Shown here: positions 5,233-16,608 of the stretch, in pieces | How the letters are laid out: each line of letters begins with the position of its first letter | How positions within the stretch are numbered: the first letter of the stretch is position 1 | IMG/VR virus record: IMGVR_UViG_3300048597_000271 | Span: 1-31,650 of that record | Source: a virus | Reading direction: 5' to 3' (one strand) | DNA: 31,650 bases | Made by a program: the position numbers and the translations under genes | The notes under the pieces: generated by a model | What the model saw: only the letters and a program-made list of their open reading frames with translations | Told to the model about the DNA's origin: nothing | Database searches by the model: none

Positions 5233-6146
5233 TGGCGAACCTCCTTCTCGAGGGCGACGATTTCAGCGGTGGACTTCGGGCACGGCACGGCGCGGATGAC
5301 GTTGCGATTCGGCCGCGACGGGTCGACCACGATCAGCGCCGGAAGGCCCGGCGCTTGCCGGATCACGTTTCCCGAGGCGTCCGTCTGGTCCTGCGTTGCG
5401 GCTTTCACGTAGCCGAGCTTCTTGGCGTTGGGCTCGTTCTGGTCGAAGGGCTTGAACTGGTTTCCCGCGGCTCGCTGGCGGTCCCAGAAGGCCGAATCGT
5501 TGATCACCGCGGCGGTGTCGACGTCGAGGGAATCGTTCTCGTACACGATCACGAACCACAGCGGGCCCGTGGGTTTCGGCTTCGGAGCGGGGTTCGGGTC
5601 CGGCGGTACCGGCGGCGGCGTGGGCTTGGGCGGCGGCGCGACTTCCTTCTTCCCGTCGTCCGGCGGTGGTTGCGGTCCCTGTCCGGCGTCCACCTCGACG
5701 GCCTGCCGTTCGGCCTTGGCCTCGTCGGTGATCCCGGCCGGAACTGCGATCAGTTCGGCTCGCCCCTTGGCACCGGGAGCGGCCTCGACGATCGCAAGGA
5801 ACTTCTGCGAGTAGGTGCGCGTCTCGATCTTGCCTTTCGAGTCGAGGAACTTCCCGCGGATCTTCACCGGGCCGGTCTCGCGGGTGATCGTCACGAGCGG
5901 CGCCGGGCTGGCGAACAGAAGAAACGGTTCGTCGTGCGGAATCACGTACACCGTGTCACCGGTGAGCGTCAGGGCGGCACCGGGAACGGGCCGCGGCATG
6001 GGCGGCGGGTCGAGCGCGGGCGGCACGAGCGGGAACTTGAAGGGCGGCGGCGCGGGCGGCGTTCCATCCGATCGCGGGATGGGAGGAGCGGCCGAAGCTG
6101 CGGCGAGCGCGGCGAAGAACACGAGACATGCGAGTAAGCGCTTCAC
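5229..6146 (-). CDS. Secreted proline-rich protein with a possible thioredoxin-like C-terminus
   Basis: This encodes 305 residues from GTG at 6146, chosen because GAGG lies five bases upstream and the signal peptide KRLLACLVFFAALAAASAA follows at once. After cleavage come a proline-rich stretch (about residues 22-57), a beta-rich domain, and a second Pro/Lys linker at about 160-195. The C-terminal domain of about 110 residues contains LPALIVVDP, loosely like the cis-Pro region of thioredoxin-fold proteins, but no CxxC motif is visible, so it would not be a redox enzyme. The stop overlaps the start of the cysteine peptidase, which suggests joint production. The function is unknown. Confidence 0.6.
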   Translation of the reverse strand: MKRLLACLVFFAALAAASAAPPIPRSDGTPPAPPPFKFPLVPPALDPPPMPRPVPGAALTLTGDTVYVIPHDEPFLLFASPAPLVTITRETGPVKIRGKFLDSKGKIETRTYSQKFLAIVEAAPGAKGRAELIAVPAGITDEAKAERQAVEVDAGQGPQPPPDDGKKEVAPPPKPTPPPVPPDPNPAPKPKPTGPLWFVIVYENDSLDVDTAAVINDSAFWDRQRAAGNQFKPFDQNEPNAKKLGYVKAATQDQTDASGNVIRQAPGLPALIVVDPSRPNRNVIRAVPCPKSTAEIVALEKEVRQ

Positions 6147-9609: not shown

Positions 9610-9975
9610 TCAGTCGTTGTTTGCGTACGCGCTCGGCGTCACGGTGATGAATCCCCACACGAGCGTAGCGGGCTCTCCTCCGGCAGTGCGCTGCACCTGC
9701 CACGAATACACCTTGTTCGTCGGCGGCGTCGTGCTCTCATCGGCCGGAACCGGCCCGGCGACGGCCGCATAGGTGCGAGCGGCTGCGTCCGTGATCGTCA
9801 CCGTGGCAGGAACGCTTGTCGGCGCGTCGGTGTCCCAGACGACTTCCCCGGCTTCGTTCCACCCAACGAATCGCAGGCTCGCACCGGCGAGCGTGTCCAC
9901 GGCGTAGATCGTCCCGAAGAACTCGAAGCTCTCCGAATCGAACACCTCGTCGCGGTATGGTGCGCGCTGCCTCAT
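9610..9975 (-). CDS. Small beta-rich tail-tip protein, unknown function
   Basis: This encodes 121 residues starting MRQRAPYRDEVFD. The ATG overlaps the stop of the large repeat protein as ATGA and is preceded by GCGAGGAC, so coupling is likely. The sequence contains ATVTITDAAARTYAAVAG and YSWQVQRTAGG segments that look like a fibronectin- or Ig-like beta sandwich. The frame stays open far upstream of this ATG, but that part is antisense-like Arg-rich noise across the repeat gene. Confidence 0.6.
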   Translation of the reverse strand: MRQRAPYRDEVFDSESFEFFGTIYAVDTLAGASLRFVGWNEAGEVVWDTDAPTSVPATVTITDAAARTYAAVAGPVPADESTTPPTNKVYSWQVQRTAGGEPATLVWGFITVTPSAYANND

Positions 9976-11966
9976 GTCGTCCTCGCAAGGTTCCCGTCGT
10001 GCTGGAACCGCGGGATTCCGCGCCCGTTGCACCGGAACCGACGCATTCCGGGGAAGTACAGGGGCTTCACCCCGGCCGCACTCGCGAACGTCACGGCTTG
10101 GCCTGCTGCGGCGCGAACGGCACCACCGGCCCCGATCGGCGCGGAGAAAGCGACGGTTCGGCCAGGCCCGGCGAGTACCATGCCCGCGGCACCGCGCAGG
10201 ATCGGCATCGCGACGACGCGGCCACGTGCGGCCATGACCGCCGAGGAGCGGCCGTAGTCGAGGCCCGCGGCGTAGCTGATTCCCGCGCCGCCGAGTCGCT
10301 GCCCGGCCCCGCCGGTGTGCCGTGCGATCGTCACCGTGCGACCGGTGGCACCCGCGGCCAGTGCAGGCGGCGCTGGCGAGCGGGAGACGGACGCCGCGGC
10401 TCCCGGTGCCCCCCGCTGTGCTCCGGCGGCCGCGGCCTCGCGAGCGATGCACACCGCGGAACCCGCACCCGGGCGAAGAGCACCGCCCGCGGCCGAGAGG
10501 ATCGACACCGTGCGGCACGCCCCCGCGGCTTTTGCCGCGATCGCGAGCGAACCTCCCGCGGTCGGGATCGAAACGGCCCGGCCTGCACCGCCGAGGCGCA
10601 TGCCACCGGCCGCGGCTCCACGCGCGGCACTGTAGGACACCCCGACGCCCGAGCGGATCGCGGTCACCGTGGCCGCGATCGATTCGATGCCGCGGACAGT
10701 TCCCGTGGCTCCGGCGCGAACGCTGGCCGAGGCGGGCGTGCGAGCGGCGGTTGTGCTCTGTCCGGTGACACCGGCACGAATCACCGCAGGCGAGATTCCC
10801 CGAGCGATTCCCCCTGATCGTCCGACACCCGCCGCGGCCTGGACGAATGCGGCCGGAGCGACGACGCGAGCGATGGCCACCGTTCGACCGCTCCCGCCGC
10901 GGCAGAGCGCGTAGGACGCTGCTGCGGTGCAGACGGTGCGGGAGCCTCCGGCCGCGGAACGGATGATGGCGGGCGGCGATGTTCCTCGCGCGGCTCCCAG
11001 TGCCGTTCCGATGCCGTCCAAAACGGCTCCGGCGAGTGTCGAAGGGGTCGCGAACGGCCAAGTGACGCCGGGCGAACTCTTCTTCGCGGCGGCGATCGCG
11101 GCAGGCGTCCCGATACCGACGGTTCGACCGGCCGCGGGCTTGGTGCAAGCACCGGGAGCGGATCCGCGGGCTAAGCCGAGCGACACACCGACCACTGAAA
11201 CAATCACTGGGCTGGACAGGCGAGCGATTCCGAGCCCTGTCCCTGCGGCGGGCTTCGTCGCGGCCATCACGCTGGGCCCGCGAGCAATACCGAGTGCGGT
11301 TCCCGTCACGGAGACGGTGACCGGCGGGATTGTGTACGTCAGAACCACCTTGCCCGCGGCACCCGCGCCCGAGTTCGATCCGGTGCTTGCGCCGCCGCCG
11401 CCGCCGCCCGGCGTTGATCCTGCGGTGTTGGCATTCCCACCGGCCCCGCCGCCCGTGACGGCCGAGCCTCCGCTTGTGCCGCTGCCGTTGTTCCCGTTGC
11501 TTCCCGTCCCGGCTGATCCACCGCCGCCGCCGCCGTTTGTCGTGCTGTTGCTGGCTCCAGTGCCGCCGGTGTAGGTGACGGCTCCGCTGCCGCCCGTCAC
11601 GCTTCCTGCGCCACCGGACCCGCCCGCGCCGCCGGTGTATCCGCCCGCACCGCCGAATCCGCCCGGTGCTTCCGCTTTGTCAGTGAGGTTGCCGAGGAAG
11701 ATGGAATTCCCGCCATTGCCGCCGGGCGACACGCCGGATCCAGCCGTACCTGCTGTTCCCACGGTGACGCTGTAGCTGTTCCCGGGCGTCACGGTGAAGG
11801 TGGCTGCGGCATAACCACCGCCGCCCCCACCACCGCCGCCGTTGGTCGTTCCGTCATCGTCGCCACCGCCAGCGCCGCCGCCCCAGCACTCGGCCAGCAC
11901 GCTCGTCACGCCGGTTGGCGCGGTCCACGTGTAGGAGCCGGGCGTGCTGTAGGTGTCAACGGACAC
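9972..11966 (-). CDS. Fibre-like protein: glycine-rich domain plus about 20 tandem 20-residue repeats
   Basis: This encodes 664 residues from GTG at 11966, which has GAGGTGG at good spacing; a GTG nine bases further upstream lies inside that ribosome site. Residues 1 to about 210 are a glycine-rich domain of the kind seen in phage fibres: a YTWTAPTGVTSVLAECWGGG opening, glycine tracts, then a beta end (KVVLTYTIPP). Residues about 215-640 are about twenty degenerate repeats of roughly 20 residues with a core G-x-x-x-T/S-V-x-I-A-R-G-x-x-P-A-x-x-x-x-A-A. The last 25 residues are basic (MRRFRCNGRG). Such proteins usually form the receptor-binding or fibre part of a tail. The repeat family was not recognised. 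Confidence 0.7.
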   Translation of the reverse strand: MSVDTYSTPGSYTWTAPTGVTSVLAECWGGGAGGGDDDGTTNGGGGGGGGGYAAATFTVTPGNSYSVTVGTAGTAGSGVSPGGNGGNSIFLGNLTDKAEAPGGFGGAGGYTGGAGGSGGAGSVTGGSGAVTYTGGTGASNSTTNGGGGGGSAGTGSNGNNGSGTSGGSAVTGGGAGGNANTAGSTPGGGGGGASTGSNSGAGAAGKVVLTYTIPPVTVSVTGTALGIARGPSVMAATKPAAGTGLGIARLSSPVIVSVVGVSLGLARGSAPGACTKPAAGRTVGIGTPAAIAAAKKSSPGVTWPFATPSTLAGAVLDGIGTALGAARGTSPPAIIRSAAGGSRTVCTAAASYALCRGGSGRTVAIARVVAPAAFVQAAAGVGRSGGIARGISPAVIRAGVTGQSTTAARTPASASVRAGATGTVRGIESIAATVTAIRSGVGVSYSAARGAAAGGMRLGGAGRAVSIPTAGGSLAIAAKAAGACRTVSILSAAGGALRPGAGSAVCIAREAAAAGAQRGAPGAAASVSRSPAPPALAAGATGRTVTIARHTGGAGQRLGGAGISYAAGLDYGRSSAVMAARGRVVAMPILRGAAGMVLAGPGRTVAFSAPIGAGGAVRAAAGQAVTFASAAGVKPLYFPGMRRFRCNGRGIPRFQHDGNLARTT

Positions 11967-12002
11967 GAATTCCACCTCGAAGGTTCTTCACGGGCTCCCC
12001 GG

Positions 12003-12736: not shown

Positions 12737-13999
12737 TTAGGAAACGGTGATGTAATTCACCACGGTTTTGAAACTCGACCCCGCGCCGTTCTCCACAGTC
12801 AGGGAGACCGTGTACACACCGGGAACCAAGTAGGTTTTCACCGGATTCTTGATCGTGCTTGTCGTGCCGTCGCCGAACGTCCACAACCACGTGAGCGGCG
12901 TTCCCGTGCTCAGGTCAGTGAACGCGACGGTGAGCGGGTGCATGCCGCCCGTTGGCGATCCAATCCAGTTGCACACTGGCGGATTCAGCCGCAGCGTGTT
13001 GAGGTCCGCGGAACTGTAGATCTGTTCCACGTAGGCCGCGCGCGGCACTTGCAAGGTGATTCCGTTCAGCGGTGTCGGTGCGTACGTGCACCACAGGTAT
13101 TCCCACGCCTTTTTGTCGATGGTGAGGTCCGGCGAAACGGGAACGTTCGTGAGGTTCTCACCGGCGGCGAACTTGTGTGTGAGCGTCCAATAGTTGTTCG
13201 GTTCACACTGGCCGGTCATGCCCATGTAGAGCACTTCCCCGGCTTCGAATCCCTTCCACGGGGCGTCATTGGTTTTCGCGACGGCGGCGCGGACCGTTCG
13301 CAGGAACGAAAGCGTCACCGGGTACGTCTTCACGGTGATCGAGAACTCGAACTTCGGGACGAACCTGTCTGTTCCCTCTACGCGGTCTTTCGTCACCCCG
13401 ATGGCTTGCCGGTAGTCCGGAACGGCCGTGGTCCAGAATCGACCGCCCGAGGTTCCCGCGGCCGCGGGCGACGACGACACCACCCAATACCCGTTGTCGA
13501 TCGATCCGATGGTGTACGTGCCGGTGGTCCAGCCGGTTCCGCCGGTCACTGTGAACTGTTTGCCGACGTCGGTGCTGGTCGGTGCGAATGTCCCTTCGGG
13601 CCGAACCTTGAACGCGCTGCTCGGGTGCATCGTCAGGTTCACCCCGGTGGCCTTGCTGCGCACCGTGGCCAAGCTCTGCGTGATGTGTTGCGTTCCCGCG
13701 GTGATGTCCACCGCGTAGGACGGCCCCAAGGCCTCGTCGTCGTCTTGGTTCTCCGGGGCTTCGGGAATCCGGAACTCGTACATCACTTCGCACAGCCACA
13801 CCCCTCCGCCGAGCGGATCGGCCTTGTGGCTGGAGTACGGCAGGCCGTCGAAGATCGTCCCGGCTTCGAGGAGCAGGCCGTTCTTCACGAGCACCTCGTT
13901 CATCGAGCGCAGCGCAACCCATTCGCGGCGCAACTTCGCTTCGGTGAGCGAGCCGACCACTTGGCGGGATTTCTGCGTTTCGATGAACACAAGCGACAC
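12737..13999 (-). CDS. Tail-tip protein with C-terminal PKD domain
   Basis: This encodes 420 residues from GTG at 13999, with AAGGGG seven bases upstream. Residues 1 to about 335 are an unrecognised tail-associated domain. Residues about 340-418 are a clear PKD domain: PLTVAFTDLSTG, WLWTFGDGTTS, YLVPGVYTVSLTVEN. PKD domains are beta-sandwiches often used for binding polysaccharide or surface proteins. It is the first gene after the tape measure, a position used for distal-tail or baseplate proteins, so it probably sits at the tail tip. Confidence 0.75.
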   Translation of the reverse strand: MSLVFIETQKSRQVVGSLTEAKLRREWVALRSMNEVLVKNGLLLEAGTIFDGLPYSSHKADPLGGGVWLCEVMYEFRIPEAPENQDDDEALGPSYAVDITAGTQHITQSLATVRSKATGVNLTMHPSSAFKVRPEGTFAPTSTDVGKQFTVTGGTGWTTGTYTIGSIDNGYWVVSSSPAAAGTSGGRFWTTAVPDYRQAIGVTKDRVEGTDRFVPKFEFSITVKTYPVTLSFLRTVRAAVAKTNDAPWKGFEAGEVLYMGMTGQCEPNNYWTLTHKFAAGENLTNVPVSPDLTIDKKAWEYLWCTYAPTPLNGITLQVPRAAYVEQIYSSADLNTLRLNPPVCNWIGSPTGGMHPLTVAFTDLSTGTPLTWLWTFGDGTTSTIKNPVKTYLVPGVYTVSLTVENGAGSSFKTVVNYITVS

Positions 14000-15883: not shown

Positions 15884-16608
15884 TCACCTCGTGAATCCCG
15901 CGATCTTCGGTTCCCACTGTCGCGAGAGCGCTTTCAGCCCGGCTTCGAGTTCAGCAAACGCGAGTGCGGATTCCGCCTCTTCATGCTTGGCGCTTCTCGG
16001 CTTCCCGTCTTCCCGGTATCGCTTCGGAATGAGGTCGATCACATTCGGCCCGGTTCCACCCATGGCCTTGTTGATCATCATTCCCAGCGCGAGCGTATGG
16101 TTCCAAGCAAGCTTCTGGTTCCCGTCGAACATCTGCTGAACTTGCCGCAGTGTCAGCCCGCGGGGGTCGATGCCGACGACTCCGGCGAGTTCCCAGGCGT
16201 ATCCGAGAACATCGAACGGAGGCCCTTCTCCATCACCTCGTTCGACTTCTCCGTCATCCTCTGCATCGCCCGCGGCAGGTTCCTCTTCATCGCTTCCCGG
16301 CCGCGGGCTTTCGGGAAAAAATCCGTCATCCCGAGCAGCATTGCGTGCGTGGCGGCGTCCAGCGCTTCACCGTCCAGAGTTCGAAGGAACTGCTCCTGCG
16401 TGACTCCGGCGGCGGTCGCCTGCGGCTCGCAGATGAGCCAAATGGCGTCCACGATCTTGAGCGTGTCCGAGAACATCACCTCGGCGAGCTTCTCGCCGTC
16501 GGTGAAGATGTGAGCCAAGTCGATCCCGGTCTCGCGCTTGATGTCGCCGAGCAGCCCGATCGTCAGGTTCACCTTCCACTCGTGCGGTCCGGCCTTGAAC
16601 GCTGGCAT
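15884..16608 (-). CDS. Tail assembly chaperone, -1 frameshift product (GT-like)
   Basis: Two frames overlap upstream of the tape measure. The first (16608 to 16153) is the G-like protein. The second is one base back and stays open from the slippery heptamer to the stop at 15884. Shifting at T TTT TTC (16321-16315) would give 98 residues of the first frame plus 143 of the second, 241 in all. The fused part contains DVLGYAWELAGVVGIDPR and LTLRQVQQMFDG, which resemble the T domain of lambda-type GpGT chaperones. This product and the short form together help the tape measure fold and recruit tail tube protein. An ATG at 16132 could give an 82-residue fragment, but it has no good ribosome site. 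Confidence 0.8.
16153..16608 (-). CDS. Tail assembly chaperone, short form (G-like)
   Basis: This is the unshifted 151-residue protein, starting MPAFKAGPHEW, with GAGGTGAAAG upstream of the ATG. It resembles small tail-assembly chaperones in length, in its beta-like start and helical middle (LLGDIKRETGIDL, FLRTLDGEALDAATHAMLLG), and in its position between the tail-completion gene and the tape measure. Most ribosomes should make this form, and a minority the frameshift product. Confidence 0.75.
   Translation of the reverse strand: MPAFKAGPHEWKVNLTIGLLGDIKRETGIDLAHIFTDGEKLAEVMFSDTLKIVDAIWLICEPQATAAGVTQEQFLRTLDGEALDAATHAMLLGMTDFFPKARGREAMKRNLPRAMQRMTEKSNEVMEKGLRSMFSDTPGNSPESSASTPAG
16315..16321 (-). 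promoter_or_regulatory. -1 ribosomal frameshift slippery site
   Basis: On the - strand the codons read gat ttt ttc ccg, which contains the canonical X XXY YYZ heptamer T TTT TTC, in frame. Slipping back one base would keep both tRNAs paired (TTT, TTT). The -1 frame is open from there to 15884 with no stop. A GC-rich stretch (CCCGCGGCCGGG) follows and could form a small stem. Confidence 0.75.

Follow-up and report, generated by a model that had tools for sequence, protein, structure and literature searches.

A predicted lambda-type G/GT frameshift in the tail assembly chaperone gene of a group of uncultured phages

In the model of tail assembly developed for phage lambda, many copies of G are made for each copy of GT, G is placed on the tape measure protein, and the T domain recruits the tail tube (PMC5009743). 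Tail chaperones made through a -1 frameshift form a wider class in the long-tailed dsDNA phages, as reported by Xu, Hendrix and Duda (2004; cited in PMC5009743 and PMC10885494). Here we describe a locus that very probably represents a lambda-type gene for a frameshifted G/GT tail assembly chaperone, located in a 31,650-nucleotide stretch of viral DNA (IMG/VR virus record IMGVR_UViG_3300048597_000271, positions 1 to 31,650; hereafter the window). The class is further characterised by a fused product made at low frequency and by the absence of both products from the virion. The sequence features that define the class are all present in the window, namely the slippery site, its phase, an open -1 frame, and a position before the tape measure gene (Table 1).

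Table 1. Features of the predicted G/GT locus and its neighbourhood in the window
Feature	Coordinates	Strand	Basis or remark
gpA-like terminase	27602-25458	-	
Lambda-family portal	24761-23268	-	
Protease plus capsid protein	23271-20848	-	
Cement-like protein	20738-19407	-	
G-like tail assembly chaperone (predicted), 0-frame, 151 aa	16153..16608	-	sequence; 24 homologous relatives; AlphaFold; BFVD
Slippery heptamer T TTT TTC	16315..16321	-	sequence; conserved in 17/21 clusters
Possible stimulatory hairpin, 9-bp stem GCCCGCGGC/GCCGCGGGC	16268..16308	-	6 nt 3' of the heptamer; window z -3.2
-1 extension, linker and T-like domain, predicted to be read after the shift	15884..16315	-	sequence; alignment of relatives; PF06223 in relatives
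Tape measure protein, 622 aa	14012..15880	-	PHROG tape measure families, best E 1.1e-17
Tryptic peptide spanning the predicted G/T junction of the fused product, TLDGEALDAATHAMLLGMTDFFPESPRPGSDEEEPAAGDAEDDGEVER			

Within the 0-frame of the putative G gene, the heptamer lies 96 codons from the start and has the X XXY YYZ phase. Its first base (16321) occupies the third position of a codon in that frame, which therefore reads GAT TTT TTC CCG. Downstream of the heptamer, the first stop of the -1 frame is the TGA ending at 15884, and the joined product comprises 241 aa. The -1 frame likewise has no stop in the 17 codons upstream of the heptamer, back to a stop codon beginning at 16369. A Shine-Dalgarno-like sequence, GAGGTGA, is found just upstream of the G frame. 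The coordinates and phase of the heptamer, the open -1 frame and the 241-residue product had all been proposed in a first-pass annotation, and re-reading of the sequence bore them out. The same annotation had warned that a single-gene call would miss the longer product, and the ordinary ORF list indeed gives only one part of the extension, an ATG-started frame (16132-15884). By itself an open -1 frame means little, because the window has 65% GC and is full of spurious ORFs.

Since no library profile matched either half of the window's product, we turned to its relatives. A scan with the tape measure protein gave two contigs (L005 and L006), identical to each other across the G/T region, which are the nearest relatives of the window (tape measure about 50% identical). 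As in the window, GAT TTT TTC CCG is present and the -1 frame is open in both contigs, where it stops 27 nt before the tape measure gene. Viral contigs were scanned with an alignment of two sequences that covered only the T part (the -1-frame domain), yielding 32 loci that encode relatives. The scan patterns lay around FDVL and WELAG.VG, so that the slip site had no role in the selection of loci; picking loci by the T motif favours those whose T frame is open at the motif itself, and selects for neither the linker nor the slip site. Together with the window, the 32 loci form 21 clusters at 70% identity. Two Sphingomonas matches (L003 and L004) were discarded as spurious: they share only a short string, and the frame looks by eye like phosphoribosyl-AMP cyclohydrolase. 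A tblastn search of GenBank phages with the fused protein or the T domain of one relative gave no match, and the G/T sequence family was found here only in IMG/VR viral contigs.

The heptamer T TTT TTC joins the upstream 0-frame to the T frame in the correct phase in 27 of the 32 loci. By cluster, T TTT TTC is present in 17 of 21, T TTT TTT in one (L036) and A AAT TTT in one (L011), and two clusters have no canonical site. On the coding strand of a reduced locus set (215 kb), TTTTTTC occurs 21 times, 18 of them at the slip site; away from the slip site, its frequency in the related loci is about 0.014 per kb. The presence of T6C in phase and at the equivalent place in 17 of 21 clusters, against its rarity elsewhere, is conservation above chance. 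The heptamer, its phase and its distance are kept across the relatives. The G-start distances were partly fixed by the way we picked starts, taking the one closest to 97 codons; they are independently supported by the earliest start of the open frame and by the aligned starts. Homologous 0-frames were identified in 24 relatives. The G frames can be aligned along their full length; F97 of the DFFP motif does not vary, and M1 and W11 hardly do. In the T-frame alignment, WELAG.VG..P is invariant. The conserved SPESSAS end of the 0-frame is the WELAG core read out of frame and is therefore uninformative on the conservation of the G C-terminus.

The first-pass annotation had proposed looking for the same open -1 frame in related phages, and it is present in L005 and L006 and in other relatives; the stop that would have counted against its proposal was sought and found in none of the 32 loci, all of them selected by the T motif. 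Its central idea of a lambda-like frameshift gains from the conserved heptamer, phase and distance and is qualified by three loci (L007, L008 and L010) from which the canonical heptamer is absent. Where the heptamer is expected, L007 (position 1367) and L008 (position 538) have C TCT TTC, and L010 has T TTT TCC (position 5845), with the same G and T frames. In these three loci the frames would be joined either at a slip site that is weaker or by a different mechanism.

Codon-position differences were calculated for one sequence pair, the window and L006. In this pair, the differences per codon position are 0.45/0.28/0.51 in the 0-frame before the slip. In the -1 frame past the G stop they are 0.35/0.27/0.39, so that the constraint on the second position follows the change of frame. 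Within the overlap, the third position of the 0-frame changes less in the same pair (0.27). This effect is modest and comes from a single pair, but its direction is the one expected for dual coding.

An alternative source of the fused product is transcriptional slippage, in which RNA polymerase would add or drop a base on the six-T run and the altered mRNA would be translated normally. The T6 run followed by C3 at the site, and the T7C4 in L036, recall the short T runs followed by C on which such slippage is known, for example T5C5 (PMC5009743). However, the A AAT TTT of L011 is a tandem-slip site free of a long homopolymer, the X XXY YYZ phase holds throughout, and the shift in the same gene of other phages has been described as ribosomal (PMC5009743); we consider polymerase slippage highly improbable. 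We give almost no credence to two separate proteins made in the absence of any frameshift, that is G and a T-like protein started from the ATG at 16132. The methionine of this ORF is conserved in many relatives, but a start there would drop the invariant WELAG.VG..P core, and no Shine-Dalgarno-like sequence precedes it. Moreover, between the slip site and the core the T frame has no ATG, GTG or TTG in the window or in any relative except L005-L008 (28 of 32), and the conserved heptamer would be purposeless if the proteins were separate. A single gene broken by sequencing error or mutation, for which adjacent frames meeting at a homopolymer would be the typical pattern, is in practice already refuted by the relatives: the two-frame arrangement, mostly with the same heptamer, recurs in 32 other contigs that come from many samples.

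In the favoured reading of a ribosomal -1 shift, the majority of ribosomes would translate the 0-frame to its end and produce the 151-aa G protein, and a minority would move back by one base at T TTT TTC, with the two tRNA-Phe re-pairing from TTT-TTC to TTT-TTT. The slipped ribosomes would continue in the -1 frame and produce a GT protein of 241 aa. On the lambda model, G would coat the tape measure protein, whose gene follows immediately, and GT, the less abundant of the two, would recruit tail tube subunits through its T domain. The data show the sequence, its phase and conservation, the gene order and, by way of relatives, the relation of T to lambda T; we infer the shift, its frequency and these chaperone roles.

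The hairpin located downstream of the heptamer may stimulate the shift in the window. Its stem arms are also present in L005 and L006, and strong hairpins near the slip site were also found in L013, L025 and L035. In L007, L014, L019, L030 and L031, the stretch after the slip site folds no better than shuffled sequences, and a family-wide hairpin was not supported by the family mean z of -0.8. The hairpin is a plausible aid to the shift in the window and not a family feature. The lambda site is not known to require a hairpin. A combined proposition, that the 9-bp hairpin is a true stimulator in the window's subfamily and that the branch of L007, L008 and L010 joins its frames by another kind of slip, appears doubtful to us.

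The profile search of both halves against tail assembly chaperones, which the first-pass annotation had recommended, gave nothing above threshold in Pfam or PHROGs for the window's own G and T halves. Among the relatives, PF06223 (Phage_tail_T, lambda gpT) matches 13 of 24 -1 extensions (E up to 0.1); the best match has E 2e-5 and 25.3 bits, just under the Pfam gathering cut-off of 25.9, and the window's own T copy was unmatched in this search. As the window's own halves have no direct profile match, the previously noticed resemblance to the T domain holds only via relatives, whose sequences support a relation of the T half to lambda gpT. The proposed G-like chaperone identity was approached through structure prediction. 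The AlphaFold model of G (pLDDT 85.9) was compared with BFVD by Foldseek, and its top matches carry the names tail assembly chaperone or tail tube protein, with probability of 0.95-1.0 yet weak E of 0.015-0.09. Four of the ten best matches are named tail assembly chaperone (probability 0.95-0.99, E 0.015-0.08). By its predicted fold, the G half is most similar to annotated tail assembly chaperones. Both protein-family comparisons, of T with PF06223 and of G with the chaperone fold, are positive but fall short of strict thresholds. The T-domain model (pLDDT 73.6) had no match in BFVD, the PDB structure comparison returned only common helical arrangements with Z at most 5.0, and PDB sequence searches found nothing.

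The gene order around the locus is given in Table 1, in the direction of transcription. Between the cement-like gene and the G frame there are small frames that have no profile matches. The tape measure frame starts 3 nt past the T stop, in agreement with the position first proposed for the chaperone frames, and in most relatives a similar frame directly follows T. At L007:1798, L010:6270, L025:3841 and L032:6278, the longest frame found just past the T stop is small and by eye lipoprotein-like, not a tape measure. In L006, a frame assigned by eye as tail-tube-like lies two genes before G. The capsid gene of the window encodes an 807-aa fusion, with a 4-nt overlap between its start and the stop of the portal gene; the N-terminal part is prohead-protease-like (PF04586, weak; phrog_3244), and the C-terminal part is a capsid part (PF25209, E 1.4e-20). 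Downstream of the tape measure gene, the window encodes two possibly host-binding proteins, one ending in a PKD domain (12737-13999, PF18911) and a glycine-rich, tail-fibre-like protein (9972-11975, PF21722, phrog_863).

Altogether, these data support a G/GT frameshift in uncultured phages of a group barely recognised by Pfam and PHROGs. With the family alignment and the slip-site signature, annotations would be corrected in some 33 contigs, whose longer product is missed when a single frame is called as the gene. The general view of tail assembly is unchanged; frameshifted chaperones are already well known. The locus resembles lambda gpG/gpGT in having two overlapping frames immediately ahead of the tape measure gene, in a T extension related to PF06223 through relatives, and in the putative low-level -1 shift at a slippery heptamer. 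It differs in the heptamer itself, which is G GGA AAG in lambda and T TTT TTC in the window, in a G protein that has no sequence profile match, and in the possible 3' hairpin near the site. The family stands apart from the wider class of frameshifted tail chaperones in its absence from GenBank phages by tblastn and its poor coverage by Pfam and PHROGs, whereas it shares with that class its position, its two-frame organisation, and a slippery site kept despite low protein similarity.
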